From NCBI RefSeq assembly GCF_900106645.1, contig NZ_FNMV01000013.1, positions 62,001 to 126,000 on the forward strand: a stretch of DNA of 64,000 nucleotides. Direction: 5' to 3'. The first letter of the stretch is position 1, and every line of letters starts with the position of its first letter. A model generated the notes under the pieces. The model ran no database searches, was not told where the DNA came from, and saw only the letters and a program-made list of their open reading frames with translations. Both the position numbers and the translations under genes were made by a program. The DNA is from Flavobacterium degerlachei. Lineage in GTDB: Bacteria; Bacteroidota; Bacteroidia; Flavobacteriales; Flavobacteriaceae. Positions 5,649 through 56,384 of the stretch are shown piece by piece.

Positions 5649-5651
5649 AAT

Positions 5652-6617
5652 TTATTCCCAGAAAATGTTATCGTCAACTGCCATTGATTTTGTTTGTAAA
5701 TTATCTTTACCTGATTTTAAATATTCAGATATTCTTGAGGTTGAAATTTCAATTGATTTGTCTGAAATGTCACAACCAATATAATTGCAGTTATTTTTAA
5801 TAGCTGCAATTGCTGATGAAGCACTTCCTAAAAATGGGTCACAAACAGTAAAACCATCTTCAGAGCTTGCGTGTAACATAGCTTGAAAAACTTCGACTGG
5901 TTTTTGTGTTGGATATTTTGAACTATGAATCCTTTTAAAACGCCAAACATCAGGGAATTTTCTGTTTTTTATTTTTCGAGTATTTTCATTTGTAGCAAAA
6001 ATTATGTACTCGTGTCTTCGTCTGAAATAATGTCCCATTCCAATATTTACTTTATCCCAAGTAATTAGATTTTTTACATCAAAATGACTACGAACAACAC
6101 TTCCTAAACTTAAAAGCGAATAAGAGTCAAACATAATATATATATGCCCTGTTGACTTTTTTAAAACTCTTTTACATTCAGATAAAAATTCGTTGTAATT
6201 TTCTTCACTATCTTCAAATTCTCCAAACCATTTTCCATTCTCTTTTCCTTTGTCAGCATATTTACCAACTATTCTTCCTTTACCGAGTTTAAGCTTGTCA
6301 TTCATACCAGAATAAGCTGGGTCAGTAGCAATAACATCTACACTATTAGAAGGTAATTTTTTTAAAAACGAAATAGCATCATCTTGATATATTGATACTT
6401 TGTTTTTGTCGGAATTATATTTAAAAGTAGCTTCGGGTTTTTTTAATCTTTTCTCGATTCTATCTTCTGTATTTTCTATAAATGATAAGATTGTTTGAAA
6501 GTATTTTTTTGAAATCTCCTCTTCATTGACAACAGGAATGTTTTGCTCAATAATATATTCTTTTAGTAGGCTTTCTTTTATCCCGTATTTTGCTACTATT
6601 TCAGATGTTTTGTACAT
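5652..6617 (-). CDS. Site-specific DNA methyltransferase (beta class) of the AlwI-like system
   Basis: A 321-residue amino-methyltransferase that would protect host DNA from the adjacent endonuclease. Motif IV is TDPAYSGMND (about residue 98-107) and the SAM-binding motif I is DPFLGSASSAIAA (about 260-272). The order IV before I marks the beta class. Motif IV is usually DPPY or SPPY, so DPAY is a slight variant. The first 50 residues (SEIVAKYGIKESLLKEYI) look like a small helix-turn-helix, which could allow autoregulation. If the site is GGATC, the palindromic GATC core means one adenine methylase could protect both strands, which would explain the single methylase gene. Confidence 0.85.
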   Translation of the reverse strand: MYKTSEIVAKYGIKESLLKEYIIEQNIPVVNEEEISKKYFQTILSFIENTEDRIEKRLKKPEATFKYNSDKNKVSIYQDDAISFLKKLPSNSVDVIATDPAYSGMNDKLKLGKGRIVGKYADKGKENGKWFGEFEDSEENYNEFLSECKRVLKKSTGHIYIMFDSYSLLSLGSVVRSHFDVKNLITWDKVNIGMGHYFRRRHEYIIFATNENTRKIKNRKFPDVWRFKRIHSSKYPTQKPVEVFQAMLHASSEDGFTVCDPFLGSASSAIAAIKNNCNYIGCDISDKSIEISTSRISEYLKSGKDNLQTKSMAVDDNIFWE

Positions 6618-6903
6618 TCAGTCTTATTTTTTTTCAAATCTACGAAATTTGATTGATTTTTAGATGTTCGTCTATGTTGTGCTCAACATTTCTACTGTAG
6701 TTTGCATTATAAAACAACTAATTTTCCAAGAGGAAACAGGAGAACTAAAGCGTTTCATTTTTCTGTTATAAATCTATAAACAAAAATCAACTTTCGGTGT
6801 TCCATAATTATTTACGTAAAATTAAACTTTAAATATTCTAATTAATTACAACAGCGTCATTTCGGTACAAGTTGCATATAACTAGTATATAGGACTGATA
6901 AAA

Positions 6904-6941
6904 TCAGACCTATCACCCCAATTTAGGGTAGATAGGTCTGA
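6904..6941. repeat. Strong hairpin (11-bp perfect arms)
   Basis: Arms TCAGACCTATC (6904-6914) and GATAGGTCTGA (6931-6941) are perfectly complementary, with a further CCC/GGG pairing inside. There is no T-run on either side, so it is not an ordinary terminator. It lies upstream of the methyltransferase gene in a gene-free stretch (6618-7303). That stretch also contains a GCATATAAC motif at 6874-6882 and the RNA-like element that follows. Confidence 0.5.
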
Positions 6942-7095
6942 CTAGAGTCACACAGTATCGATTATCAAATATATAACTTAATTACCGTAAATACTGACTA
7001 ATGTCATTTGGTGATTAAGTTGTTGTCAAAGATGAATCCTTTTTATTTTGAATCCTTACGGGAAACCTCATTAGTGTTATTTATTACATAAAACA

Positions 7096-7242
7096 CCTAG
7101 CCCTGACAGCAGTGGAAAGCCTATGCAGGCGTGAAACCGCTTTTTTCTAGTGGAGGCTGAGCGACCAAAGGAAGCTCCTGCCAGCGCTTAGAAAAAGGGT
7201 TTGAAGCCAAATAGCTTGTAGCGAATGGCGGGAATAGCTCAA
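7096..7242 (+). ncRNA. Repeated Flavobacterium structured RNA-like element (Flavo-1-type?), copy A
   Basis: It starts CTAGCCCTGACAGCAGTGG and ends GTAGCGAATGGCGGGAATAGCTC, with internal hairpins including a CTTTTTTCTA/TAGAAAAAG stem. The same head (TAGCCCTGATGGAAGCGG) and tail (ATAGCGGACAGCAGGAAATAGCTCC) enclose a different internal hairpin at 41352-41454, and a diverged copy lies on the minus strand at 25931-26003. Conserved ends with a variable middle suggest a structured RNA or repeat family. From memory I believe it corresponds to the Flavo-1 RNA motif, which I could not verify. Here it lies just past the end of secA, antisense to it. Confidence 0.55.
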
Positions 7243-7303
7243 AAAAAATCCCCAACTACTTTCGTAATTGAGGAATTTAATTTTATTAAGAAATGTGACT
7301 TTA

Positions 7304-10300
7304 TTAGTTCACAATAACCCATTGACCTGAAGCGATAAGGCTTTCGGCTTTTTTGTATTTCATTTCTTGCGTCTGTCCGTTAGCTACATTTTGAATGGTA
7401 ACATTGTCATTACGGTTGATTTTTGGCATTTCTCTTACCACATTTTCAGTAACTTGACGTTGCTGTGTTTGTCCTGCTTCACGGTTATCTGCTTCGCTAG
7501 ATCCTATTTCGTCTTTTGAAGTTTTATAATCTTCCTTCTGTACTACTTCTCTAGCTTCTTCAATTTCAGGTGCACTTTGTTGTGGTAAATCCCCTTTGAA
7601 AAGGAATGAAATCACTTCTTTATTTACCCCATTTAACATAGCGTTAAATAAATTGAAAGCTTCAAATTTGTAAATAAGCAAAGGGTCTTTTTGTTCGTGA
7701 ACAGCCAGTTGAACTGATTGTTTCAATTCATCCATTTTGCGTAAATGCTTTTTCCAAGCTTCATCGACAATTGACAATGTGATGTTTTTCTCGAAATCAG
7801 CAATTAATTGTTTACCCTCAGTTTCGTACGCTTTTTTCAAGTCAGTTACCACGCTCAATGATTTTACACCATCAGTAAATGGAACTACGATACGTTCGAA
7901 TTGGTTGTTTTTGTCTTCGTATATGTTTTTGATGATAGGGAAAGCCTCTCTTGCGCTGCGTTCCGTTTTCTCGTTGTAATATTTCAAAGCTTCTTTATAT
8001 ACTTTTCCTGTCAACTCAATTTCAGTTAATTTCAAGAAATCGCTTTCCGAAACTGGAGAAGTGATAGAGAAATAACGAATAAGGTCAAATTCAAAGTTTT
8101 TAAAGTCATTGTTTACTTTTGTGTCTTGTATAATTAGTTCACAAGTATCATACAACATGTTTGCAATGTCCAGTTTCAAACGTTCTCCAAACAAGGCATG
8201 ACGACGACGTTTGTAAACTACTTCACGTTGTGCATTCATTACATCATCATACTCTAATAAACGTTTACGAACACCAAAGTTGTTTTCTTCTACTTTTTTC
8301 TGTGCACGTTCAATGGATTTAGTCATCATTGAATGTTGGATTACTTCTCCTTCTTCAAGTCCCATTCTGTCCATTACTTTGGCTACTTTTTCAGAACCAA
8401 ATAAACGCATTAGGTTATCTTCAAGAGAAACGTAAAATTGAGAACTTCCTGGGTCACCTTGACGACCAGCACGACCTCTCAACTGTCTGTCTACACGACG
8501 TGAATCGTGACGTTCCGTACCTACAATTGCAAGTCCACCCGCTGCTTTTACTTCTTTGGATAATTTAATATCCGTTCCACGACCAGCCATATTGGTAGCA
8601 ATAGTAACTACTCCTGGTTTTCCTGCATCTTCAACAATTTGAGCTTCTTGTTTGTGCATTTTTGCATTCAATACATTGTGCGCAACACCTCTCATTTTCA
8701 ACATTCGACTTAACAATTCCGAAATATCAACTGAAGTCGTTCCAATAAGAACTGGTCTTCCTGCATTTGAAAGAACAGTTACATCTTCAATTACGGCATT
8801 GAATTTTTCACGAGTTGTTTTATAAATAAAATCCTCTTTGTCTTGTCTTGCCATTGGTCTGTTAGTAGGAATTTCTACTACATCCAATTTGTATATTTGC
8901 CATAACTCACCAGCCTCAGTAACCGCAGTTCCTGTCATACCAGCTAGTTTGTTGTACATTCTGAAATAGTTCTGTAAAGTTACCGTTGCAAATGTTTGCG
9001 TTGCAGCTTCAATTTTTACATTTTCTTTAGCCTCGATAGCCTGGTGTAATCCGTCAGAATAACGACGTCCATCCATGATACGTCCCGTTTGCTCATCGAC
9101 AATCATGATTTTATTGTCCATGATTACATATTCAGTATCTTTTTCGAAAAGGCTATACGCTTTCAAAAGTTGTGTTAACGTATGGATACGCTCACTTTTT
9201 ATTCCGAAATCTTGGAATAATTTTTCTTTTTCTTCTGCTTCTGCGTCTTTATCTAATTTTTTCTTCTCAATAGCCGCAATTTCAGTTCCGATATCTGGAA
9301 GTACGAAAAAGTCAGCATCAGTATCTCCTGAGAGGAATTGGATTCCATTGTCAGTCAATTCAACCTGATTGTTTTTTTCTTCAATTACAAAATACAAGGC
9401 TTCGTCAATCTTGTGCATTTCACGATTGTTGTCCTGCATGTATTGATTTTCTGTTTTTTGAAGTAATTGTCTGATTCCTTCTTCACTCAAAAACTTAATC
9501 AATGCTTTGTTTTTTGGAGCACTTCTATAGGCTCTTAAAAGCAAGAAACCACCTTCTTTAGTTTTTCCTTCTTTGATCAATTTTTTAGCCTCAGATAAAA
9601 ATCCATTTGCCAACTGACGTTGAAGAGCAACCAAGTTTTCGATTTTTGGTTTCAATTCATTAAACTCATGACGATCTCCTTGAGGTACTGGACCAGAAAT
9701 AATCAATGGTGTTCTTGCATCATCAATCAATACAGAATCGACCTCATCGACAATTGCATAATTGTGTTTTCTTTGAACTAAATCGTTAGGTGAATGGGTC
9801 ATGTTATCTCTTAAATAATCAAAACCAAATTCATTATTTGTTCCATAAGTGATATCCGCATTGTAAGCCGCTTTTCTTCCCTCAGAACTTGGTTGGTGAT
9901 TGTCAATACAATCAACAGTCATTCCGTGGAATTCAAATAAAGGTGCTTTCCAAGTACTATCACGTTTAGCTAAATAGTCATTCACAGTTACTAAATGCAC
10001 ACCGTTTCCAGTTAAAGCATTCAGGTATAGAGGTAAGGTTGCTACTAATGTTTTTCCTTCACCCGTTTGCATCTCTGCAATTTTTCCTTCATGCAACACC
10101 ATTCCACCAATCAATTGAACGTCATAGTGAATCATGTCCCAAGTAATTTCTTTTCCAGCAGCATTCCATTTGTTTTGCCAAATAGCATCGTCTCCTTCAA
10201 GAGAAACATAAGGTTTGATTGCAGAAAATTCTCTGTCTTTAGGAGTTGCAGTTACTCTTATTTCTGAGTTGTCTTTGAATCGTCTTGCTGTTTCTTTTAC

Positions 10301-10645
10301 TACTGCAAAAGCTTCAGGAAGTATTTCAAGTAATGTTTTCTCAGATAGTTCGTATGCTTCTTTTTCTAAGGCATCGATCGATACATAAATGTCTTCACGC
10401 TGATCAATATCTTCAATCCCTTCAACTTCTTTCTTAAGAGTGGCGATTTTAGCGTCAATCCCTGCGCGGGCAACTTGCAGTTGGTCTTTGAAGAAAAAAG
10501 TACGTGCTCTTAATTCGTCATGTGACAATGCAATTAAATTGCTTTCGAAAGTTTTAATTTTGTTTAAGTAAGGCTGTAAAGCCTTAACATCTTTCTCGGA
10601 TTTATCCCCGACAAAGGCTTTAAGAATGCTATTTATGAAACTCAT
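7304..10645 (-). CDS. secA: Preprotein translocase ATPase SecA
   Basis: Motor of the Sec pathway that pushes unfolded preproteins through SecYEG. At 1113 residues it is long, as in other Bacteroidota. Walker A is QTGEGKT (about 193-199) and the DEAD-type motif is VDEVDSVLIDDA. The second helicase domain has MAGRGTDIKL and the arginine-finger region HDSRRVDRQLRGRAGRQGDPG. A lineage insertion of over 100 residues follows the first nucleotide-binding domain segment (around LIISGPVPQGD). The C-terminus is Gln- and Glu-rich and ends in ESLIASGQWVIVN, without the cysteine zinc motif of E. coli SecA. The DUF2795 gene lies upstream on the same strand. Confidence 0.98.
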   Translation of the reverse strand: MSFINSILKAFVGDKSEKDVKALQPYLNKIKTFESNLIALSHDELRARTFFFKDQLQVARAGIDAKIATLKKEVEGIEDIDQREDIYVSIDALEKEAYELSEKTLLEILPEAFAVVKETARRFKDNSEIRVTATPKDREFSAIKPYVSLEGDDAIWQNKWNAAGKEITWDMIHYDVQLIGGMVLHEGKIAEMQTGEGKTLVATLPLYLNALTGNGVHLVTVNDYLAKRDSTWKAPLFEFHGMTVDCIDNHQPSSEGRKAAYNADITYGTNNEFGFDYLRDNMTHSPNDLVQRKHNYAIVDEVDSVLIDDARTPLIISGPVPQGDRHEFNELKPKIENLVALQRQLANGFLSEAKKLIKEGKTKEGGFLLLRAYRSAPKNKALIKFLSEEGIRQLLQKTENQYMQDNNREMHKIDEALYFVIEEKNNQVELTDNGIQFLSGDTDADFFVLPDIGTEIAAIEKKKLDKDAEAEEKEKLFQDFGIKSERIHTLTQLLKAYSLFEKDTEYVIMDNKIMIVDEQTGRIMDGRRYSDGLHQAIEAKENVKIEAATQTFATVTLQNYFRMYNKLAGMTGTAVTEAGELWQIYKLDVVEIPTNRPMARQDKEDFIYKTTREKFNAVIEDVTVLSNAGRPVLIGTTSVDISELLSRMLKMRGVAHNVLNAKMHKQEAQIVEDAGKPGVVTIATNMAGRGTDIKLSKEVKAAGGLAIVGTERHDSRRVDRQLRGRAGRQGDPGSSQFYVSLEDNLMRLFGSEKVAKVMDRMGLEEGEVIQHSMMTKSIERAQKKVEENNFGVRKRLLEYDDVMNAQREVVYKRRRHALFGERLKLDIANMLYDTCELIIQDTKVNNDFKNFEFDLIRYFSITSPVSESDFLKLTEIELTGKVYKEALKYYNEKTERSAREAFPIIKNIYEDKNNQFERIVVPFTDGVKSLSVVTDLKKAYETEGKQLIADFEKNITLSIVDEAWKKHLRKMDELKQSVQLAVHEQKDPLLIYKFEAFNLFNAMLNGVNKEVISFLFKGDLPQQSAPEIEEAREVVQKEDYKTSKDEIGSSEADNREAGQTQQRQVTENVVREMPKINRNDNVTIQNVANGQTQEMKYKKAESLIASGQWVIVN

Positions 10646-10688
10646 AATATATTTGTATTTCTATTTATTTTAAAATGTAAATTTAACC

Positions 10689-10716
10689 AAAAAAAAAGCC
10701 TCTTCTGAGACTTTTT
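10689..10716 (-). terminator. Terminator after the DUF2795 gene
   Basis: On the minus strand the stem AAGTCTC/GAGGCTT with loop AGAA is followed by a run of nine T. It sits 14 bases past the DUF2795 stop codon and 44 bases before secA. Confidence 0.7.
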
Positions 10717-10729
10717 CTTTGCTTATTCT

Positions 10730-10951
10730 TTAATATTCATCCTCATTCCAAAGATAATCTTCGTCTGTAGGATAATCTGGCCAAATTTCTTCCATTGATT
10801 CGTATATCTCGCCTTCGTCTTCAATAGATTGTAGGTTTTCTACTACCTCTAAAGGAGCTCCGGCACGTATAGCGTAATCAATAAGTTCGTCTTTGTTAGC
10901 AGGCCACGGTGCATCACTAAGATAGGATGCTAATTCTAATGTCCAATACAT
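10730..10951 (-). CDS. DUF2795 domain protein (small, acidic)
   Basis: A 73-residue acidic protein: MYWTLELASYLSDAPWPANK, then ELIDYAIRAGAPLEVVENL, then a Glu/Asp/Tyr-rich tail. It matches the small DUF2795 proteins conserved across Bacteroidota, often next to secA. The N-terminal half could form a small helical domain. No catalytic motif is visible and the function is unknown. It is separated from secA by a terminator, so it may be expressed on its own. Confidence 0.75.
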   Translation of the reverse strand: MYWTLELASYLSDAPWPANKDELIDYAIRAGAPLEVVENLQSIEDEGEIYESMEEIWPDYPTDEDYLWNEDEY

Positions 10952-11113
10952 CTTTTGTCGATTTAGTTTTGTGCAAAAATAATTTTTTTACTGAAAAATA
11001 CAAGTAAAAATCTATTTATTTTATAAAAAAGTTAAGAACGTTTTTTTTAGTGTAAAGTTTCAGGTTTAAAGTTTGAGGTTTTTAACCTAAAAACGAGTAT
11101 TTATTCCTGTCAA

Positions 11114-11683
11114 CTATTTCCTCGGAATCCATTGGACTTCCTCGGCTTGCAAATCATGAGACAACTTTCGTGCCAATACAAAAAGATAGTCAGATAGTCG
11201 GTTCAAGTACTTGATCGCGATTGTAGCTACGGGTTCATTATGGCTTAAATGTACCGCCAATCGTTCGGCACGACGGCAAACACAACGAGAAATATGACAA
11301 TATGACACTGTGGTGTGTCCGCCAGGTAAAACAAAATGCGTCATAGGCGGAAGTTCACTTTCCATACTATCGATTTCATTTTCCAGCAATTCAATATCAC
11401 TTTCTACAATACCTAATTTTTTTAAACGAAGTTCGCCGTTTTTCATCACTTCTTTTTCTGGCGGCGTGGCAAGTATAGCTCCTATTGTAAATAAGCGATC
11501 CTGTATTTCTACAAGAATGTCTTTATAATGCGTATTCATATCTTGATCACGAACAAGTCCTATATAGGAATTCAATTCGTCTACTGTTCCGTAACTCTCA
11601 ATTCTAATATGGTCTTTGGGAACGCGAGTGCCGCCAAAAAGTGCTGTGGTTCCTTTATCTCCGGTTTTAGTATATACTTTCAT
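11114..11683 (-). CDS. Cob(I)alamin adenosyltransferase, PduO/MMAB type
   Basis: Transfers the adenosyl group of ATP to cob(I)alamin to make adenosylcobalamin. The 189-residue protein has the family's ATP-binding start KVYTKTGDKGTTALFGG, the ESYGTVDELNSYIG segment (about 29-42) and the RCVCRRAERL helix near 130-140, all characteristic of PduO-type enzymes. The length is typical. A long perfect palindrome lies 22 bases upstream, between it and the ATP-grasp gene on the same strand. The window also encodes a B12-binding radical SAM protein (61754-63943), a possible cobamide user, but no coupling is shown. Confidence 0.93.
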   Translation of the reverse strand: MKVYTKTGDKGTTALFGGTRVPKDHIRIESYGTVDELNSYIGLVRDQDMNTHYKDILVEIQDRLFTIGAILATPPEKEVMKNGELRLKKLGIVESDIELLENEIDSMESELPPMTHFVLPGGHTTVSYCHISRCVCRRAERLAVHLSHNEPVATIAIKYLNRLSDYLFVLARKLSHDLQAEEVQWIPRK

Positions 11684-11747: not shown

Positions 11748-12587
11748 TATAGCGTTAACAAATCGTTGCAAGGAGCCCTCACTAAGATTAAAATACAAAT
11801 CAGGTTCAATGCATTCCACTTCCATTAAGTGAAGTTCGTTGTCTATTACGATTCCATCTACTCTGGTATATAGTAGGTCTCCACTAAATGTGTCGACAAT
11901 TTGTTGTGCTTTTTCAATTAACTCAGCATTGGGTTGAACTAAAGTATACTGGCCGCCAAACTGCACTTGAATTCTAAAATCGCCAGCAACAGGTTTCTTA
12001 TTAACTGCGTGAGAGAATTTTTTATTGAAAAAGATAAAGGAGGTTTCTCCCAAAGTTTGAATTTCAGGCATGAACTCTTGTAGTAAAAGTTCTTTTTGGG
12101 AAGCTATGCTTTTGTATTCGGTATTGATTTTTTCTATTTCAGCTAATTCAAAGACTTCTGTTTGATACGAACCCGCGGAAAATGCTGGTTTTATAACTGC
12201 TTTTTTCCAATGAGAAGGTATTATTTTATGGAGGTCAAGTTCATCCGTTTTGTCTATAAAAACAGTGGGAAGGATTTTGACACCTTGCTTTTCCATTTCA
12301 CGCAAATAAAATTTATGCTTGTTGTTTTTAATGGCATCAATAGAGTTGAGCGTCTTAACTCCTGATTTTTCGATATGCTCAAGCCAAAGGTTGAATTCGG
12401 CCTCCTTCTCAAAGTAATCCCAGGTATTACGAAAAACCAAATAATCAAAATCGTTCCAATCTACATTTTTGTCATCCCAAATCACTGCGGTCGCTGTAAT
12501 GTTAACTTTGGCTAATTCTGGAATTAACAGTTGGTCATATTGAGTTAATTCAGGAAGCTTCTCGCAGGTTAGTAGGGCGATTTTCAT
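11730..12587 (-). CDS. ATP-grasp domain protein (RimK/glutathione-synthetase-like)
   Basis: A 285-residue cytoplasmic protein. The start MKIALLTCEKLPELTQYD and a Rossmann-like pre-domain lead into an ATP-grasp fold with KHKFYLREMEKQGVKILPT (about 106-124), KPAFSAGSYQTEVF (about 152-165) and the metal-binding region VEVECIEP-like LMEVECIEPDLYF near the C-terminus. Such proteins join a carboxylate to an amine using ATP, and some make peptides or modify protein tails. The substrate cannot be told from sequence and no peptide precursor gene is adjacent. It is followed on the same strand by the adenosyltransferase. Confidence 0.8.
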   Translation of the reverse strand: MKIALLTCEKLPELTQYDQLLIPELAKVNITATAVIWDDKNVDWNDFDYLVFRNTWDYFEKEAEFNLWLEHIEKSGVKTLNSIDAIKNNKHKFYLREMEKQGVKILPTVFIDKTDELDLHKIIPSHWKKAVIKPAFSAGSYQTEVFELAEIEKINTEYKSIASQKELLLQEFMPEIQTLGETSFIFFNKKFSHAVNKKPVAGDFRIQVQFGGQYTLVQPNAELIEKAQQIVDTFSGDLLYTRVDGIVIDNELHLMEVECIEPDLYFNLSEGSLQRFVNAIVDLIK

Positions 12588-12706
12588 TTTCGAATAATTT
12601 ATGAAATAGGATAATAGGGTTTGTCTTGCAGATTAAATTCGGCAGAATCTGTGTTTTTTTTTGAAATAAAAAAGAATGAGATACTATCGAGTAAGCTAAT
12701 AATAGG

Positions 12707-13393
12707 CTATTTTTTTATATCGCTTTCAACCATACCATCACGCAAACGGATAATTCTGTGGGCATAAGCAGCAATTTCCTCCTCATGCGTTACTAATATA
12801 ACGGTATTGCCATTAGCATGAATATCATTAAAAAGCTTCATGATTTCATCAGAAGTCTTAGTGTCTAGATTTCCTGTAGGTTCATCAGCAAGGATAATAG
12901 AAGGTTTATTGACTAAGGCTCTTGCAATAGCCACACGTTGTCTTTGTCCACCAGAAAGCTGGTTGGGCTGGTGATCCATTCTATCCTCAAGATTTACTTG
13001 AGTAAGTACTTCGGCGGCGCGAGCACTTCTTTCTGATTTAGAATAGCCGGCATATATCATCGGTAAAGCCACATTATCTAATGCTGTGGTTCGAGGTAAC
13101 AGGTTAAAAGTTTGAAAAACAAAGCCTATTTCTTTGTTGCGTATTTCAGCTAATTCATCATCTTTCATCTTGCTGACGTCTTTTCCATTAAGTATATAGG
13201 TCCCAGATGTAGGAGTGTCTAGGCAACCCAAAAGATTCATCAGTGTCGATTTTCCTGAGCCAGAAGGTCCCATAAGGGCTACGTATTCGCCTTTATTTAT
13301 TTCTAAGTCAATTCCTTTTAGAACATAAACGATTTCGTTTCCAAGAACAAAATCTCTTTTGATATTGGTAATTTTTATTAATGGGTTTGACAT
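12707..13393 (-). CDS. ABC transporter ATPase of the LolD/MacB type
   Basis: A 228-residue nucleotide-binding subunit. Walker A is GPSGSGKST (about 40-48), the signature is [15 protein letters not shown] (about 140-154) and Walker B is [11 protein letters not shown]. The H-loop is [30 protein letters not shown] is typical of LolD/MacB/FtsE-like ATPases that drive lipoprotein release or mechanotransmission. No permease gene is adjacent, so its partner lies elsewhere. An ATG four codons upstream (13405) is possible, but [11 protein letters not shown] is the usual family start. Confidence 0.9.
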
Positions 13394-46923: not shown

Positions 46924-48258
46924 TTACAATCCGTAAGTTGTAATTCTAAAATTATTTGATGCGGTAGTTAAAGTATAGATCGTGTTAGAATATGCGATTT
47001 TAAAACTTTCTTTTTTAACATATAGTCCTTTTGGATCTAATAGTTGTTTGTCCAAGTCTTTTAAAAGTGTAGGTTCACTTCCGCCAAGCCATCCGTCGTC
47101 TTTAAGAATAATTGTTTTGTTAACTGGGTCTTCAGTTACAGTTACAAAATGGTATAACGTTGATTTACCGCCAGTAAAAGAGTATGAAATATAACTTCCA
47201 TTTGCTCCATCATTAAAATAGAAGGAAACTCTATTGACTTTTTGTGTTGATGGTAAACTTGCATTTATTGTATTCAGTAAGGAATTACACAGTAAAGAGT
47301 TACTTGGTGCCGTAGCTAGAAAGGCAGCAATATAGGCATATATTGTTCTAGGGTTTCCAGCTAATAACACTTTATAATCATCAGTTAAAACTAATGGTTT
47401 ATTAGAATATTTAATTGTAGCAGTAACTCCAGCAGTTCCTGTAGCGATAAAGTTTCCTGTTGCGGCATCGTATGTAAATGCAGCTAATTGCTGATTCCCA
47501 ACCTTTACTGCAGGACTAACTAAAATACCAGTGGGAGTATATGCAATACCCATATTATAACTCATACTTGAACCCGTTTCAATCGAATTAGCCACCGCAT
47601 ATCTCGTTTCTGCGGTGAAATTAAAATCAAACTGACTTGTTTTAGTTCCATCATTAGTTTCTAATAAACGAAACAAGGGTCTAGTTGTAGCGCCAACTAC
47701 ATTAGCAATCATAAGTCTGTTTTTAGCAAGATCTGTCCAGTCAGAAGCAGTTGCTTTTACAAAACGCAATTCTTCAAAACTTCTGTTGGTTTTGAAAATA
47801 ATTTGGCCATTTTCTTGTCCGTAATATAGAAATTGAAAGTCTCCTTTGTATCCTTTTCCACGTAATGCAGCAACAGGGTAGTTGTTTGAATCAGATAATA
47901 AGTGAATTCTGTTTTTTGTTGTAAAAACAAGACTTACAGTACTTCCTAAATCAATACTATATTCGCTAGAATATACAGCAGTATCGTCATCAAAATCAGA
48001 TGCCATATCTACTTTACCGTCTTTGAATTTGAATACATGAGTAAAACCACCTAATTGAGTAGTGTCAGTGTAGTACACCGCTTTCCAACCAAACTCTGAT
48101 GATTCTAGCATATCATTTAGTTCTTTTTGTTGTGCATTTAATCGCTCTGTAGGAGTAGCATTAAATGGAGAATCTAAGGTTTCCTTATTGTCGCAAGAAA
48201 CCAATTGCATCGCTAAAACGGCGATGAATAGATAGTTAATTATAGTTTTTAGTTTCAT
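46924..48258 (-). CDS. DUF4302 lipoprotein of a SusCD-type locus
   Basis: A 444-residue surface lipoprotein with signal IINYLFIAVLAMQLVSC (Cys about 22). The opening RLNAQQKELNDMLESSEFGW, then KAVYYTDTTQLGGFTHVFKF, is the DUF4302 pattern. It is commonly encoded after SusC, SusD and an HExxH lipoprotein. The mature part is beta-rich, likely an accessory binding protein. It is the last gene of the locus, followed by a terminator. Confidence 0.8.
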   Translation of the reverse strand: MKLKTIINYLFIAVLAMQLVSCDNKETLDSPFNATPTERLNAQQKELNDMLESSEFGWKAVYYTDTTQLGGFTHVFKFKDGKVDMASDFDDDTAVYSSEYSIDLGSTVSLVFTTKNRIHLLSDSNNYPVAALRGKGYKGDFQFLYYGQENGQIIFKTNRSFEELRFVKATASDWTDLAKNRLMIANVVGATTRPLFRLLETNDGTKTSQFDFNFTAETRYAVANSIETGSSMSYNMGIAYTPTGILVSPAVKVGNQQLAAFTYDAATGNFIATGTAGVTATIKYSNKPLVLTDDYKVLLAGNPRTIYAYIAAFLATAPSNSLLCNSLLNTINASLPSTQKVNRVSFYFNDGANGSYISYSFTGGKSTLYHFVTVTEDPVNKTIILKDDGWLGGSEPTLLKDLDKQLLDPKGLYVKKESFKIAYSNTIYTLTTASNNFRITTYGL

Positions 48259-48327: not shown

Positions 48328-49191
48328 CTAATTTCCGTTTATTACAGCTGTTGTGTTTTTCTCTGCTTCGTCTCTTAATTTGTAGAAATCCATATTAAAT
48401 GAATCTTTAAAATATTTCACAACTACTGCCTCTTTAGCTCTAATATTGGCAACTGCAGTTTGATTTGTAATTCCTGCTAAGATTGCATCATACTCTGCTT
48501 TTGAATTCACTAACATTGTTGAGGCCATTTCAGCAAAATCTTCATTTATATTTGAACGGGCATAATCTGTTATAAAACCTTCTTCTCTAGCAACAGTAGT
48601 AGATGTAGCATACCAGTTTGAAGTATAACCAGTTGGAGTTATTTTAGCTAATGTTTTTTCGTCGAACGGTTTTGTTTGATTCAATATGTGAATGTATTCA
48701 TGCTGTATTGTATGAATAAAACGTTTTACGTTAGCACGATCTTTTTTATTTACGTTATCTACTTCAAATAATGTAATTCTTTGTCCCCCTTCAGCTAATC
48801 CTAAAGTGATTGTACCTGTTGTGTTCAAATTAATTCCACCAACAAGAACAAATTCTCTTGGGGCGATTTTTTTTACAAAATCAGGTCCGCCAATAGTTTT
48901 GTAGCTTTCTAACCATATCTTTTGCACAATCTCTAAAGCAGGTTGTACTTTAGTTTGTAAAGGTGGTGCTAAAAAACGATTATTATCCACTACGTTTTGA
49001 TTCCATTTATATTGTACATTAATATTATATGGGGTCAATATATTGGTATCTATCCATGTATCTAAAGCTGTTTTTGAAGGGGTTGATACATCAAGAATAC
49101 TATCAGTAAGTGGTTCATCACTTGCACATGCTCCAAGTAATAAAACTGAAGAGAGTGCAATTACTTTTTTATAAAAATTTAGTTTTTTCAT
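48328..49191 (-). CDS. HExxH zinc-metallopeptidase lipoprotein associated with TonB receptors
   Basis: A 287-residue lipoprotein (signal VIALSSVLLLGAC, Cys22). The zinc site is HEYIH (His164-Glu165-x-x-His168) within FIHTIQHEYIHILNQT, with a downstream Glu candidate in AREEGFITDYARSNINEDFAEM. It matches the family of substrate-import-associated zinc metallohydrolase lipoproteins found beside SusC/SusD. It would sit at the cell surface and process or sense a substrate, probably a protein or peptide. It is co-oriented with SusD upstream and DUF4302 downstream. Confidence 0.85.
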   Translation of the reverse strand: MKKLNFYKKVIALSSVLLLGACASDEPLTDSILDVSTPSKTALDTWIDTNILTPYNINVQYKWNQNVVDNNRFLAPPLQTKVQPALEIVQKIWLESYKTIGGPDFVKKIAPREFVLVGGINLNTTGTITLGLAEGGQRITLFEVDNVNKKDRANVKRFIHTIQHEYIHILNQTKPFDEKTLAKITPTGYTSNWYATSTTVAREEGFITDYARSNINEDFAEMASTMLVNSKAEYDAILAGITNQTAVANIRAKEAVVVKYFKDSFNMDFYKLRDEAEKNTTAVINGN

Positions 49192-49204: not shown

Positions 49205-50686
49205 TTAACGTGGATTTTTCTCTACTCCAGTATTAGTAACGTGTAATGGAAGTTGAATTGCTTTTCGTAAATCGTCTTTAGTTAAAACATTGTCAGGTTG
49301 GTTGTATGCTTTATGAGTTACTTTTAAAGCAAAACGTTAGATATCTAACCATCTTAAACCTTCATGTATAAACTCTCTTCTTCTCATTTCAGCAACTGCT
49401 TTTATGTATGAAGTTTGAGTAGCTGTCATCGTGTAAAAAGGAGTGTATTCATTTTCAATTACTGGATATTTAGCAATGATTTTAGCTTCTGTAACTTTAT
49501 CAGTCGTAGCATTGTAACCAGTAATTCTTACAGATAAAAAGTAATCCATCTCTTCAATAGCTAAAGCCAACTGATTCGTCATAATGTGCGCTTCAATTCT
49601 ATTTAAGAATAGTTCATCATTGCTTAATAAAACTAATGCATCGTAAGGTAAACCAATTCCTGCATTCGCATTGGTGTATTTAAAATACTCCACAAATTTG
49701 GGTACGAAAATAGTAATTTGTCCATTATACGATAATGGTCTATATAAGTACGTTTTATTTGCTAAGTTTGTTGAAGCGCCAAATAAGAGATCTCTATCTG
49801 CACCAGTTAATTGAAATCGGTTTGAATAAAAGCTTCTTGAGTAAATAGAAGATGCAGAAGCTATTAATAAATTTGTCGTTTCACTTTCTAGGGAGTATTT
49901 TCTTTGACCTGTAGTAAAATCTACGTCTAAATAAGACTGATAATTTCTTAACTGTGAAACTGGTTTGTTTCCAAGATCATTTGATACTGCAATTACTTTG
50001 TCCCACTCACCAGTAACTCCATAGAAGCGACTTGCAAAAGCATTTGCTGCTCCCTTGTTAAAGTGGAATTTAGGCTGCTCGTAATCACTTGTTACTAAAG
50101 GTAATCCTTCCTCGATATCTGCTTTTAGATAAGCATACACCTCTTCAACAGAATTTCTTGTGTATTTTTTAATCAATTCTGTTTCCGGTGTCAATACATA
50201 AGGAATTCCCAAATCTGTCTTTGCTGTGGCAGGATTGTATCGTTGAGAAAACATAGTAACTAACATAAAGTGTGAATAGGCTCTTGCTAATAAGGCCTCT
50301 CCTTTTTGTGGATTCAAATTTGCTGGATTGCCTAATTTTTCAATAGCATCAAGCGCTTGATTGGCATGTGCAATCGCACTATAACATGCATCCCAGTAAT
50401 CTGCAGGGGTATCTCTATTGATATCGTCCTGCATTTCCCAATTGTAATTTTGACTATTTTTGATAGTCGTAAGTGTCAAATCTCCACTGTCAAACACATT
50501 GTCAGTCATTGTTTCCGCAAACTCCATATAGTTTCCTTGTGGATAAGCATTAACTAATATCTCTGATATTTTTTCTGGTGTGTCTAATTGTGTTCTGTTG
50601 TCAGGAATTTCAGAAAGAAAATCATCACAACTGCTGCTAAGTCCTAATATTACCAGGAGGGTTAGAGTTATTTTTATTTTTCTCAT
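49205..50686 (-). pseudogene. RagB/SusD family outer membrane lipoprotein, interrupted near its end by TAA
   Basis: From the ATG at 50686 the frame encodes 449 residues with signal IKITLTLLVILGLSSSC, an SusD N-terminal domain (DFLSEIPDNRTQLDTPEKIS) and the helical repeat core (ALLARAYSHFMLVTMFSQRY). It ends with MRRREFIHEGLRWLDI, then TAA at 49337-49339. The same frame continues RFALKVTHKAYNQPDN to a further stop at 49205-49207, adding 43 residues (total about 493). SusD proteins normally run through WxDIKRF-type sequence there, so an AAA to TAA change at a Lys is the simple explanation. The SusC partner starts 9 bases upstream of this gene. Function may be reduced; readthrough or an assembly error are alternatives. 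Confidence 0.85.
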
Positions 50687-50695
50687 GTTTTTTTA

Positions 50696-53600
50696 TTAAA
50701 ATGATACGTTAAGAGAGAATGTGTATTGGCTTGTGATTGGTTGAGAAACTCCACCAGTTCTGTAAAACTCAGGATCTTGTCCGTTTAACTTTTTATCTGA
50801 ATAAATTAATAGTGGGTTAGCTGTCGACGCTTTCATAGAGAATAGATTAAGTCCCAATTTTTTCTTCAAATCTTTAGGGAATTCATAGCTCAATGACACG
50901 TTTTTCAATCTTACAAATGTACCGTCAGCTACTCTTTCATCAGAGTAATTATAAGCATTGTAAGCTCTTTTTAAATCCTTAGAATCTGCATCGTAATTTG
51001 CAATTAATCTTTGGTCTGCGATAACAGGAATGTTAGTGAAGGCTTCATCACCTGGATTAATCCATCTGTTTGTAAATTCCTTTGTGAATACAGTTAAATC
51101 GTCATACTGTGAAGCATAGATTGGATTCAAACGTACTTTATTTCCACCAGCAGCAACTATAAATACATTTAAAGACCAGTTGTCGTACGTGAAAGTATTT
51201 GAAATACCTGCTGACTTATTAGGTTCAATCGACCCTTCATATTTCAAGTATTTAGTAATATTTTCAGAGTCTTGAAAATTTGCTCCAGCAATATTATCTT
51301 CTTCACCATCGGCCATAATAAAGGTAGGTAAACCTTGATTGTTTAAGCCTGTAAATTGATAAGAGTATAATGCATTTCTTGGATGTCCTAATGTATTTCC
51401 ACCTGTACCATCTACTAACCCTAATACTGATGGATTATTTTGTAAACTAGTGATTTTTTGGTCATAAATTGAAAAATTAAATGATGTAGACCATTTTAGT
51501 CTTGTGTTATTTAAATTTTTTGTAGAAAGTGAAAACTCAATACCTTTTGTTTCCATATCGGCATTATTACCTTGTTTTAATTTTTGTCCTCCAATTCCAG
51601 AAGTGGTAACAAAATCTACTAAATCAAATGCTTTACGACTATAAACATCTGTTGTAAATTGAACTCTGTTGTCAAACAAACCTAAATCTAAACCAATGTT
51701 AGTTTCAAATTGTTTTTCCCAAGTCAAATCTGCATTTTGTAACTCGTCAATATTTAACCCCGTTTCTCTGTCTCCTAAGATTAAACGATCTGTAATAAAA
51801 CTTTTATAAATTGCTAAAGAATTGGTTGCTGGACCCGCTGTTGCAGTTAGACCGTAAGAACCTCTTAAACTTAATGTATTGATTGCTTTTACATTTTTCA
51901 TGAAGTCTTCCTCCATAACATTCCATTTTCCACTAAAAGTGTAAGTAGGCAACCATCTTGAGGAATTACTATTTCCTTGTCTGTTTGATCCATCATAACG
52001 ACCTGTAATCGATCCAGTATAACGTCTGTCGTAAGTATATCCTACTTTACCAAAGAAACCAACTGTTCTTTCTCTTTCCTCATTGAATGAATAATAAGAC
52101 TCTCCTCCGTTGATTAATTTTTCTAAGATTCTTGGATCAGTAAAAGCAGTTAATCCTCTATCATACTGTAAACCGTATGCAGTAAAATTATTACTGTTTC
52201 TGTCAACAGATCTAAGTTCTTGTCCGAATAAGGCTTCTAGCTCATGTTTGTTACTAAATACATTTTTATAGTTGAAACTATTTCTAATGTTGTAAGAAGT
52301 CAGGTCATTAGAAAATTTTCTAAGCATTCCACCATTTGGTAAAACTGAAACTTTTGGTGCAGTCAAATCATCTGGATCTTGATATAAAAAGATATTTGCA
52401 TCTCTTACAAGAGTTGTTTCTGTCGCATTATATGCACCAATAATATTAGAATTTTCTAAGATGTTGTGCTCTCTAGTAGTATTAGCATAACGAGCATTAG
52501 CAGTAAAGTTATAAGTTAATTTTGGACTTATCTTATAAGCTAAATCTGCTTGAAAACGTATGTCTTTTACTTTGATATCCATATAATTGTTTTCCAATTC
52601 TTCAACGATATTAATTGGAGCCCAGTTGTTTCTATAATACTCGTAGTTGCCATTGTCATCATAAGGTCTTAAAGCTCTATTTGTATTTAATACATAATTA
52701 AATGGATTAATATCAAAATCTCTAGTAGTACTTCCACTCACACCATCTCGAAGACTATCATAAGAACCTGGAGCTGATTGATCTCTAACAGATGCTTGAG
52801 TTGATAATGTAAGATTTAATTTATCGTTTATAAAGAACGTATTCTTGATATTTGATGTCAATTGGCTTACTTTGTCAGCTACAGTCCATCCTGGATCACT
52901 ATAAAATCCTAAAGAGGCAAAGTAGGCATTATTTTTACCTCCACCAGAAAAACTCAATGAGTGATTTTGTGTTATTGAAGGTCTGAATAATGTTTTAAAC
53001 CAGTTAGTATTAGCTAATTCATACTTTCTTAAAAAAGCATTTCTATTCGGTTCATCATTTTTAACACCAAATGTTCCGTTAGTTGTGTCGTATGTATTTA
53101 TTGCATTTGCTAGGATGTTATATACTCCTCCGTATCGCCCTTGAGCGGTATCAGGTAAGCCAAGAAAACCTTTAGATTCCATTTCTTTTAATATTCCCAT
53201 CGTTTCTTGAGAATTTAAAATGTCATATTGATTGTAATTAGGAACTACTCTAGCTGTTTGTTCTAACGAATAAGTAACGCTTAATGGAGACTCACGTCTT
53301 CCTTGTTTTGTAGTTACAACAACAACACCATTCAATGATCTTGAACCATAAATAGAAGTTGCCGATGCATCTTTTAGTATTTCAATACTTAAAACGTCAT
53401 TAGGATTTAATCCTGCAATTGACGAACTCAATAAAGTCTCTGAATTTCCAGAGGCTAAATCAGCAAATGAAAGGTTAACGATATCTTCTTGAACAATACC
53501 ATCAATTACCCAAAGTGGTTTTGTATCTCCAAAAATAGAAGATGAACCACGAACTGTAATTTTTGGAGCTGTTCCAAAAGTACCAGTAACGTTTTGAACC

Positions 53601-54409
53601 GTTACCCCAGCTGCTTTACCTTCAATCATTCTACTGATATCTACAACACCTTCAACTAGTAACTCTGCCCCAGTTATCTTGCTTATAGCTCCTGTAAAAG
53701 TTCTTTTTGATGTTTTCTCATATCCTGTAGTAATCACTACTTCATTTAGTTTTTGTCCAAACTCGCTTAAGATAATGGTAATTGGAGTTGATTTTATAGC
53801 TATTTCTTGAGTTTCCATTCCTATATATGAAACCACAAGTCTTGTGCTATTTGCAGGAGCATCAATAGTAAAATTACCATCAAAATCTGTCAGTACAGCT
53901 ATTTTTGTTCCTTTTACCATAACTGTAGCTCCAGGTAAAGGAAGTCCGCGTTCGTCAAGAACTCTACCTTTAACTATAGTTGCTAAAACAGTATTAGGTA
54001 CCAATGATGTTGGTGTAATCATACCTATTAGATCATTAGTAAGCGAAGTTTTATTTTGCAATACAATTTGATTACTTACTTCAGAATAAGTAATGTTAAG
54101 TGGTTTTAAAATATTACTAAGTATAGATGATAGTAACTCATCATTTGCTTTGTAACTAACTATTTGATTAAGTTGGCTAATTCTTGAATTGTACGAAAAT
54201 TTAACATTCGCAGTTTTCTCAAGTTTAGCTAAAGCATTAGACAAGCTTAAGTTCTCAATACTAAGAGTAACTTTAGTGTCTAATTTCTTTTGTCCTTTAA
54301 CGCTATTTGCCATGGTTACAGTGGAAAATACAAAGGCCAACAGAAATTGAAATAATGTTATTTTCATGATTCGGAGGAGTAATCGTTGTTTAACAACAGG
54401 TTTTTTCAT
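50696..54409 (-). CDS. SusC/RagA TonB-dependent receptor with N-terminal STN domain
   Basis: A 1237-residue outer membrane transporter. After a signal peptide (about 15-40) comes an STN domain (KVTLSIENLSLSNALAKLEK) that contacts an anti-sigma factor. It is followed by a carboxypeptidase-D regulatory-like domain (VKGRVLDERGLPLPGATVMV) and the plug with VVITTGYEKTSKRTFTGAI and LKDASATSIYGSRSLNGVVV. The remainder is the 22-strand barrel, ending QYTFSLNVSF. It imports a substrate with its SusD lid, powered by TonB. Linkage to an ECF sigma/FecR pair suggests substrate-induced expression. The substrate is unknown. A peptide is possible given the adjacent HExxH lipoprotein. Confidence 0.95.
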   Translation of the reverse strand: MKKPVVKQRLLLRIMKITLFQFLLAFVFSTVTMANSVKGQKKLDTKVTLSIENLSLSNALAKLEKTANVKFSYNSRISQLNQIVSYKANDELLSSILSNILKPLNITYSEVSNQIVLQNKTSLTNDLIGMITPTSLVPNTVLATIVKGRVLDERGLPLPGATVMVKGTKIAVLTDFDGNFTIDAPANSTRLVVSYIGMETQEIAIKSTPITIILSEFGQKLNEVVITTGYEKTSKRTFTGAISKITGAELLVEGVVDISRMIEGKAAGVTVQNVTGTFGTAPKITVRGSSSIFGDTKPLWVIDGIVQEDIVNLSFADLASGNSETLLSSSIAGLNPNDVLSIEILKDASATSIYGSRSLNGVVVVTTKQGRRESPLSVTYSLEQTARVVPNYNQYDILNSQETMGILKEMESKGFLGLPDTAQGRYGGVYNILANAINTYDTTNGTFGVKNDEPNRNAFLRKYELANTNWFKTLFRPSITQNHSLSFSGGGKNNAYFASLGFYSDPGWTVADKVSQLTSNIKNTFFINDKLNLTLSTQASVRDQSAPGSYDSLRDGVSGSTTRDFDINPFNYVLNTNRALRPYDDNGNYEYYRNNWAPINIVEELENNYMDIKVKDIRFQADLAYKISPKLTYNFTANARYANTTREHNILENSNIIGAYNATETTLVRDANIFLYQDPDDLTAPKVSVLPNGGMLRKFSNDLTSYNIRNSFNYKNVFSNKHELEALFGQELRSVDRNSNNFTAYGLQYDRGLTAFTDPRILEKLINGGESYYSFNEERERTVGFFGKVGYTYDRRYTGSITGRYDGSNRQGNSNSSRWLPTYTFSGKWNVMEEDFMKNVKAINTLSLRGSYGLTATAGPATNSLAIYKSFITDRLILGDRETGLNIDELQNADLTWEKQFETNIGLDLGLFDNRVQFTTDVYSRKAFDLVDFVTTSGIGGQKLKQGNNADMETKGIEFSLSTKNLNNTRLKWSTSFNFSIYDQKITSLQNNPSVLGLVDGTGGNTLGHPRNALYSYQFTGLNNQGLPTFIMADGEEDNIAGANFQDSENITKYLKYEGSIEPNKSAGISNTFTYDNWSLNVFIVAAGGNKVRLNPIYASQYDDLTVFTKEFTNRWINPGDEAFTNIPVIADQRLIANYDADSKDLKRAYNAYNYSDERVADGTFVRLKNVSLSYEFPKDLKKKLGLNLFSMKASTANPLLIYSDKKLNGQDPEFYRTGGVSQPITSQYTFSLNVSF

Positions 54410-54566: not shown

Positions 54567-55685
54567 TCAATAATTACAACCATCAGAATTGATGATGATT
54601 TGGTTTCCATTCATTTCATAACTCGTATTATTTGCCAGCGCTTTGCAGATAATTTTAAGCTTTTCTGGTAAAGGTTGGTCGTTTAGTGAAGTAGTAAGAT
54701 GACAGTCTTTTAATTTGTCTTTTGGGAATTCAATGTTTACTAAATAAGCCTGTTCAATTGTTTTAAAAATTTGACTAACGGGAATGTCAGTGAAGTCAAA
54801 ACTTAATTGCTCTATTGTCCTAACAGAGTGTATTAATGTTTGATCTTTTGTAATATCTGTAATTTTATCGAAGGTCGAATTTTTTCGAGTAAAGCGCAAG
54901 GCCTCATTAGGGAGTAATGTGATTTCCTCTTTTTTATTAGAGCTTAATGCCATTTCATTAGACTGTACTTTTACTTTACCTGTTCGTACAAGAATTTCTA
55001 CATTTGGTTCATTAGAAAAAGCACTTATTCTAAAACTAGTTCCAACTACTTTGGTAACAATTTCATTAGCAAAGACTAGAAATGGTTTTTTAGGGTTTTT
55101 ACTGATTTCAAAAAAACCTTCACCTGATAAATAGACTCTTCTTTCGTTTCCTACAAAAATTTTCGGGTAGCTCAGTTTACTTTTTGGTTGTAATAAAACA
55201 GAACTTCCGTCAGATAAAGTTATAATTTGAGCTTTCGTAGAATTATTAGTTTGCTCAACGAGTCCCTCATCATTATTGTCTTCAATAAGTTCATTGTAGA
55301 CTTGTGTAGAATTAGTAGGAATAAATAAATGGCTATAAGTCCAAGTAGCAAGTAAACCAAAAACCAAAACTGCCGCAACAGACCTTAGCCAATTATTATT
55401 CCAATGTTTAATTTCTTTTTTTGTACTAGTTGATATTTCATTTTTTTCAATTTTATTCCAAGTAGCCACTAATGCAGATTGAATTATTGAAGGGTGTAAA
55501 TTATTTTCAGGAACTTTCATAGCTAAAACCCATAGTCTAGCTTCTTCAACTAACTTAGCTCGGATAGAATTTTCTAAAGTCCATTCTTCCCAGTTTTCAA
55601 GGTCCGTCTTTGTACGTACCCATGATAAGAATGATTCATCAGCTAAAAAATCTTCGATTTCGGTATATTTGTTACGTTTTTGCAT
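54567..55685 (-). CDS. FecR-type anti-sigma factor
   Basis: A 372-residue inner membrane protein. A cytoplasmic N-terminal region (about 1-95) would hold the sigma factor. A single membrane span is SVAAVLVFGLLATWTYSHLF (about 103-122). The periplasmic FecR domain has IITLSDGSSVLLQPKSKLSY, VYLSGEGFFEISKNPKKPFL and a DUF4974 C-terminal part (FDFTDIPVSQIFKTIEQAYL). It would receive a signal from the STN domain of the TonB receptor and release the sigma factor encoded upstream. Confidence 0.93.
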   Translation of the reverse strand: MQKRNKYTEIEDFLADESFLSWVRTKTDLENWEEWTLENSIRAKLVEEARLWVLAMKVPENNLHPSIIQSALVATWNKIEKNEISTSTKKEIKHWNNNWLRSVAAVLVFGLLATWTYSHLFIPTNSTQVYNELIEDNNDEGLVEQTNNSTKAQIITLSDGSSVLLQPKSKLSYPKIFVGNERRVYLSGEGFFEISKNPKKPFLVFANEIVTKVVGTSFRISAFSNEPNVEILVRTGKVKVQSNEMALSSNKKEEITLLPNEALRFTRKNSTFDKITDITKDQTLIHSVRTIEQLSFDFTDIPVSQIFKTIEQAYLVNIEFPKDKLKDCHLTTSLNDQPLPEKLKIICKALANNTSYEMNGNQIIINSDGCNY

Positions 55686-55775: not shown

Positions 55776-56384
55776 TTATAATATGCTGTAGGATAGTAGT
55801 ATTAGTAAAGGAATGTTAGTGTTCCATTCCTTGCGCAAGTTGAGTAAAGCGCGGTGTAATAAATTATTAGCTGATTGGTAATTGACGTCCAACATATCAG
55901 CAATTTGCTCTACACTTAAACCTTGGTGGTATCTAAGGTATAAGGCTTCTTTTTGTCTAGAAGGTAAAAGATTGATGAGTATATTGAGTTGATTAACCTT
56001 ATCAGCAGTACTTTCATCAAGAATTAATTGGTGTTCAATGGAGAAATCAAATAAAAATTGAATGGAATCAGTTGATGCAGTTTTGGTGAAAATATAGTCG
56101 CGCTCCTGCAACCTAGCAATTCTTTTGCGAACACTTGATAAAAGATAAGCCTTTACATTGGCATTATCATTTAAAGAATGTTTGTATATCCAAAGATCTG
56201 CGAATACATCTTGAATACAATCTTGAACCTTTTCAGAATGATTTGAAAATGAATTTCCATAACGAACTAAATGTTCATAATACTTTGTGAAAAGTACTGA
56301 AAAAGCCTTTTCATCTCCTGTTCTTAATCTACTCCAAAGTATAGAATCGTCAGCGCAAGTAGTATTTAATGATTTTGTATTCAA
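55776..56384 (-). CDS. ECF RNA polymerase sigma factor
   Basis: A 202-residue sigma-70 family protein of the extracytoplasmic type. Region 2 includes DCIQDVFADLWIYKHSLND, and region 4 includes LPSRQKEALYLRYHQGLSVE, then QIADMLDVNYQSANNLLHRA as the helix-turn-helix. It would transcribe the SusCD locus when FecR is switched off. An odd hydrophobic tail (IPLLILLSYSIL) ends the protein. It is the first gene of the six-gene minus-strand locus. Confidence 0.92.
   Translation of the reverse strand: MNTKSLNTTCADDSILWSRLRTGDEKAFSVLFTKYYEHLVRYGNSFSNHSEKVQDCIQDVFADLWIYKHSLNDNANVKAYLLSSVRKRIARLQERDYIFTKTASTDSIQFLFDFSIEHQLILDESTADKVNQLNILINLLPSRQKEALYLRYHQGLSVEQIADMLDVNYQSANNLLHRALLNLRKEWNTNIPLLILLSYSIL

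Follow-up and report, generated by a model that had tools for sequence, protein, structure and literature searches.

The locus examined here raises the question of whether a susD gene that is cut short by an in-frame stop has lost its function or still yields a working protein. The gene lies on the minus strand of the window, by which we mean the whole stretch of 64,000 nucleotides of Flavobacterium degerlachei DNA that was analysed. We concluded that a recent nonsense mutation probably disables SusD, the gene probably being an early pseudogene with a tail that has not yet drifted and with open operon partners.

Reading Frame of the Interrupted susD Gene

The susD frame starts at an ATG (50686-50684, minus strand) and meets its first in-frame stop after 449 codons. 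The part before this stop (49340-50686, minus strand) encodes a SusD-like_3 domain preceded by a lipoprotein signal that was read by eye. Codon 450 is the premature stop, a TAA (49337-49339, minus strand). It is followed by a tail of 43 sense codons (RFALKVTHKAYNQPDN...EKNPR; 49208-49336, minus strand), which match the C-terminus of full-length SusD, and then by a second TAA (49205-49207, minus strand), located where the relatives of 493 aa have their stop and 13 bases before the ATG (49191) of the next gene. A preliminary description of this DNA had reported a TAA within the susD frame and a family-like continuation to the next stop, and both the reading of the frame and the alignment of relatives agreed with it. 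The possibility that the tail is a separate downstream gene was ruled out: no in-frame ATG, GTG or TTG was found in it, and it continues the family sequence. Read through the stop, the frame is 87% identical to the SusD of locus L032 (an uncultured Flavobacterium MAG) and 86% identical to that of L033 (F. gillisiae), both of which are 493 residues long, possess Lys450 and lack an internal stop.

The truncation keeps 91% of SusD, the whole SusD-like_3 domain included, and removes the last 44 residues. Accordingly, PF14322 was detected in the truncated protein at 132.2 bits (cut-off 27; E 3.5e-38). The C-terminal SusD_RagB domain, PF07980, reached 15.0 bits, which is below its cut-off of 23.1, and the gene was therefore filed as a truncated susD and not as an intact one; the full-length relatives L032, L033, L041 and L059 scored 26.4, 26.8, 27.4 and 35.0 bits for this domain, respectively. 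Membership in the SusD/RagB family was indicated by PF14322, by the adjoining SusC/RagA transporter, and by the SusD fold of the full-length relative L032. Characteristics of a pseudogene were also present, namely an internal stop, conserved coding sequence after it, and intact orthologues elsewhere.

As a control, in-frame extensions past the stop were listed for every window ORF with a length of 150 aa or above (37 in total), and extensions of at least 43 codons were looked at. Four ORFs had such an extension, susD being one of them. Each of the other three extensions holds an ATG of its own: they comprise an AlwI-type restriction gene following a methylase gene, an ORF of 147 codons behind a gene resembling an oxidoreductase, and, behind an FtsY-like gene, 61 codons that include a short ORF (the oxidoreductase and FtsY labels were assigned by reading the translations). 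The match between the susD tail and the C-terminus of full-length SusD, seen in 57 other loci, is more than chance. Elsewhere in the window, at 3966-6617, genes for a DNA methylase and an AlwI-type restriction endonuclease lie in one frame, 3 bases apart, and form a restriction-modification pair.

Operon Surrounding susD

The operon encodes, in this order, an ECF sigma factor, FecR, SusC, SusD, a Peptidase_Mx1/TIGR04549 lipoprotein and a DUF4302 protein. The sigma factor (55776-56384, minus strand; 202 aa; PF08281 and TIGR02985) has a TTG start as listed. It is followed by the FecR-type anti-sigma factor (54567-55685, minus strand; PF16344 and PF04773) of 372 aa, compared to 369 in L032 and 365 in L033. 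The SusC/RagA TonB-dependent transporter (50696-54409, minus strand; TIGR04056, 621.9 bits) lies upstream of susD, ends 9 bases from it, and is open over 1237 aa (1237 in L032, 1236 in L033). Downstream are the zinc-hydrolase-like lipoprotein (48328-49191, minus strand), which is open over 287 aa (287 in L032, 286 in L033) and has 9urd and 4l7a as solved relatives, and the DUF4302 protein, a lipoprotein (46924-48258, minus strand; PF14135, E 6.5e-46), which is open over 444 aa (445 in both L032 and L033).

All five partners of susD are thus open and have lengths near those of L032 and L033, and the operons of these two relatives have the gene order of the window and nearly equal gene lengths. 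SusC and the accessory genes had been described as intact, and their open frames agree with this. The idea of a degenerating operon was ruled out on the same observations. An SdpI-family gene (PF13630; 46125-46778) is located on the opposite strand, between the operon and the BshC gene; it is present in L033 and is not listed in L032.

Codon 450 in Relatives and Survey of the Genus

A search of contigs yielded 31 loci, 26 of which, including the three most similar, were Flavobacterium by title. For the count at codon 450, we used the best match per locus in 92 loci, the window's own among them, and counted identical sequences once. This resulted in 72 sequences, of which 69 reach the codon and three do not. 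Lysine was found in 65 of the 69 (AAA in 50, AAG in 15). The remaining sense codons, CGT, TTG and CTG, occurred once each (one Arg, two Leu) in the distant loci L029, L059 and L061. The TAA was found in the window only, and none of the remaining 68 sequences has a stop at this codon. These counts support the earlier proposal that a Lys codon within the WxDIKRF motif was changed to TAA. Close relatives sharing the stop and a conserved 449-residue protein, which that description had named as the observation that would speak against it, were looked for among the 69 distinct sequences and in 398 genomes of the genus, and none were found. The tail itself was aligned to 62 loci, two of which were the window's own and three of which were weak and stopped short of the end; the remaining 57, which align up to the end of the protein, all have it.

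The 398 genomes were searched with the full-length L032 protein (E <= 1e-60). This susD gene was detected in 109 of them (114 rows), and an internal stop was detected in two rows: that of the genome containing the window and that of genome G045, at codon 225. A third genome, G269, had its susD in two pieces. SusC, for which a 936-residue part served as the query, was also detected in 109 genomes (113 rows), with no internal stops. A bias of stops toward SusD was considered, and two of 114 rows versus none of 113 are too few to claim one. The hydrolase gene was flagged for stops in six of 113 rows. Three of the five rows with a single TAA were inspected (G077, G088 and G303), and in these the stop falls on the last codon but one of the alignment; the sixth flagged row is the broken-up copy of G269. 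In the three inspected genomes (loci L007, L012 and L090), the hydrolase homologue is two residues shorter, which is a harmless variation of the end. Within the window's own genome, there were six SusD matches, susD itself included. Three of the five others were compared with it; they were 27-32% identical, and no spare copy of susD was seen among them.

The G045 gene (locus L133, G045:C1:1696000-1715000, positions 9944-11425) belongs to an equivalent operon in which all the other genes are open. Its TAA corresponds to AAA in its relatives L071, L073 and L074. Compared to L073, it had a dN of 0.033 and a dS of 1.04 before its stop, and a dN of 0.046 and a dS of 0.88 after it, so that by these estimates it is likewise little drifted after the stop. 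In our view, G045 shows a comparable event that arose independently in a second Flavobacterium species. The operon copy of G269 (locus L134, G269:C1:2850000-2868000, positions 3973-11080) differs in that its susD, Mx1 and DUF4302 genes are all broken up, which reflects either decay or assembly errors. Directly upstream, this copy has no sigma/FecR genes; a 135-codon ORF without a Pfam match occurs twice upstream, and the downstream side holds a gene for an IS1595-type transposase (12325-13224).

Contribution of the Lost Tail to the SusD Fold

Conservation and model alignments were based on 23 of the 31 loci. The eight left out were L047, L053, L054, L055, L056, L060, L061 and L062, most of which started late, were broken or were distant; L054 could have stayed. 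Among the 23 relatives, 11 of 44 columns (25%) were invariant from residue 450 on, compared to 87 of 429 (20%) for residues 21-449, and the mean column conservation was 0.73 and 0.74, respectively. The model of full-length L032 SusD (mean pLDDT 70.6) has a helix at residues 445-452, short strands at 456-458 and 466-468, and a short helix at 481-484. Comparison of this model with solved chains gave 50 listed entries with Z of 16.8-28.5, whose titles mostly read SusD, RagB or SusD-like, and all 50 alignments end at model residue 490-493 (the ranges denote the first and last aligned residue only). As the tail is both conserved and inside the aligned SusD fold, the model and the alignments indicate that the 44 lost residues are part of the conserved fold and not an appendage.

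The truncated window protein was modelled with the same set of relatives. Model confidence at its new end was 36 (residues 441-449), versus 65 at residues 441-450 of the L032 model. The chain end of the latter (491-493) scored 39 in the full-length protein, as chain ends score low anyway. The SusD models are of modest confidence, and a structure predictor is a weak judge of truncation.

Age of the Stop and Selection on susD

We estimated the age of the stop from the drift of the tail. Over its 43 codons, the window and L032 differ by one non-synonymous and seven synonymous changes. The single amino-acid difference is Ala460, and its codon is identical to that of L034. In the codon table of the relatives, none of the 43 tail residues was private to the window, and hence the stop looks recent. 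This table was used in place of lineage-specific tail counts, which under a strict rule were zero and zero and thus uninformative. With about 100 non-synonymous sites in the tail, zero changes correspond to a 95% upper bound of 3.0 changes (0.03 per site). Provided that the tail drifts freely after the stop, the stop would have arisen within about the last 6% of the window's branch after its divergence from L032, with half of a dS of 1.0, a value near saturation, as the branch length; the lower dS measured in the tail itself, 0.29, would raise this limit to about 20%. The limit does not hold for a tail that is still being translated.

Before the stop, dN between the window and L032 was 0.091 and dS about 1.0. 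The dN/dS ratio in this part was 0.090, 0.049 and 0.073 against L032, L033 and L034, respectively, and 0.077 between L032 and L033. By this measure, dN/dS before the stop is not raised in the window susD. The sequences of susD and its partners give no sign of relaxed constraint, which would be equally expected if the system still worked.

Explanations of the Premature Stop

The account that we prefer is as follows. Recently in the evolution of this species, a single-base change would have converted codon 450 of susD from Lys to TAA. The operon still encodes SusC and both downstream lipoproteins (hydrolase-like and DUF4302), but SusD lacks the last 44 residues of its conserved fold. The truncated lipoprotein would then fold poorly or fail to seat on SusC as its lid, and the transporter would be inactive or much weakened. 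We infer the failure of the truncated SusD from these features; a partly working truncated lid is possible. By analogy with the levan system described below, uptake by this one system would be weakened or abolished without stable SusD. Lost or reduced uptake in this strain, as suggested in the preliminary description, may be read from the sequence in the same way.

An unlikely, though the least improbable, alternative is that the 449-residue SusD is made and works fully or partly, the stop being a tolerated C-terminal truncation. The protein does retain its N-terminal domain and most of its C-terminal region, the unraised dN/dS before the stop and the open partner genes fit this explanation, and a single binding-site mutant of the levan SusD of Bacteroides thetaiotaomicron is reported to have grown normally (PMC7782687). 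However, retention of the tail in every other locus that reaches the protein end, its invariant columns, and its position inside the SusD fold all argue against it. We consider it somewhat less probable still that the TAA stems from an error of sequencing or assembly. A single assembly of the species was examined, an error would predict just such an undecayed tail, and the three further long extensions of the control do not resemble a gene split by a stop. On the other hand, the assembly (3,856,409 bases in 43 contigs) is 99.92% complete with 0.2% contamination, the change is a substitution and not an indel, and bacterial genomes commonly carry isolated nonsense mutations.

Read-through of the stop, often enough for a useful amount of full-length SusD, is the explanation to which we give the least credence. 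It would account for a tail under constraint equal to that of the body, and the base after the premature TAA is C, a leakier context. A recent stop accounts for the intact tail equally well, however, and there is no conserved recoding signal, because no other sequence has a stop at codon 450. Moreover, TAA is an ordinary stop in the window, where it ends 27 of the 37 ORFs of at least 150 aa, and none of the 42 tRNA genes found in the genome has a stop-reading anticodon; this set is incomplete (150 of 368 first-look candidates were scored), and tRNA-Ile with anticodon GAT is not among the 42.

The G045 gene invites a broader speculation, which we hold to be improbable: loss of the SusD lid with intact SusC and lipoproteins may be tolerated or even favoured in these Flavobacterium operons, having arisen in two species independently and both times at a codon that is AAA (Lys) in their near relatives. 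A lidless transporter would perhaps still feed the cell, or would escape an antibacterial protein that uses the SusCD pair, as the title of the ButCD-BfUbb structure suggests for the nearest solved relative of this pair. Returning to the preferred reading, the window stop is probably an ordinary nonsense mutation of recent date, affecting one of the several susD genes of this genome. The result is a naturally occurring allele in which SusD is shortened at its C-terminus and the partner genes are open. It also carries a warning for annotation, since a 449-aa SusD called automatically would be the truncated form. If the truncated SusD were functional, the conserved C-terminus would be dispensable, which bears on the lid mechanism.

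Comparison with Known Systems

The operon was compared with the Ics iron-capture locus of Capnocytophaga canimorsus and its counterpart in Riemerella anatipestifer (B739_0103-0098). The Riemerella locus is reported to consist of SusC, RagB/SusD and a 'substrate import-associated zinc metallohydrolase' followed by genes called hypothetical, to be homologous to Capnocytophaga icsC-icsH, and to be induced by iron limitation (PMC5429918). The same paper states, citing earlier work, that iron uptake from serotransferrin requires every polypeptide encoded by the Ics locus (PMC5429918), and B739_0103 is reported to be Fur-repressed (PMC7976709). The window operon has the same order of SusC, SusD and zinc metallohydrolase (a likeness of order only) and so resembles the start of the reported Ics locus. 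It differs in that the DUF4302 gene alone follows the hydrolase gene, with SdpI coming next on the other strand, and in that a sigma/FecR pair precedes SusC.

We searched the window for two published Fur boxes, allowing up to three mismatches. The first had three matches window-wide, each with three mismatches (at 26980, 30922 and 35838), whereas 0.69 were expected; four of 100 shuffles reached three. The second had none. Neither box was found near the operon at this threshold, and Flavobacterium boxes may differ. In B. thetaiotaomicron, BT3958-59 and BT3961 (TonB receptor, SusD and DUF4302) are similar to the window operon in gene content by annotation, and they are reported to be down 2.6- to 3.6-fold under iron depletion (PMC10434189). 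Iron uptake is attractive by gene order; it was not assigned because these Bacteroides genes fall under iron depletion, no Fur box was found near the operon, and a single gene follows the hydrolase.

Published SusD mutants offer a second comparison. In the levan system of B. thetaiotaomicron, the lid is described as important in vivo, and in a SusD mutant with a low protein level growth set in only after about 8 h, a delay described as similar to that of the strain lacking SusD (PMC7782687). In a coevolved line of F. johnsoniae, one base had been inserted into a susD, FJOH_RS24865; this insertion alone, placed in the ancestor, left susceptibility unaltered (PMC10197871).

Among solved structures, ButCD (8ypt and 8ypu) was the best match of both components of the pair. 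The window SusC scored 303.4 bits against 8ypu and 301.7 against 8ypt, and the L032 SusD model aligned best with 8ypt_A (Z 28.5, rmsd 3.7, 384 aligned residues), although the ButCD and Flavobacterium SusD proteins are only 22-23% identical. By its title, entry 8ypt is a complex with BfUbb.
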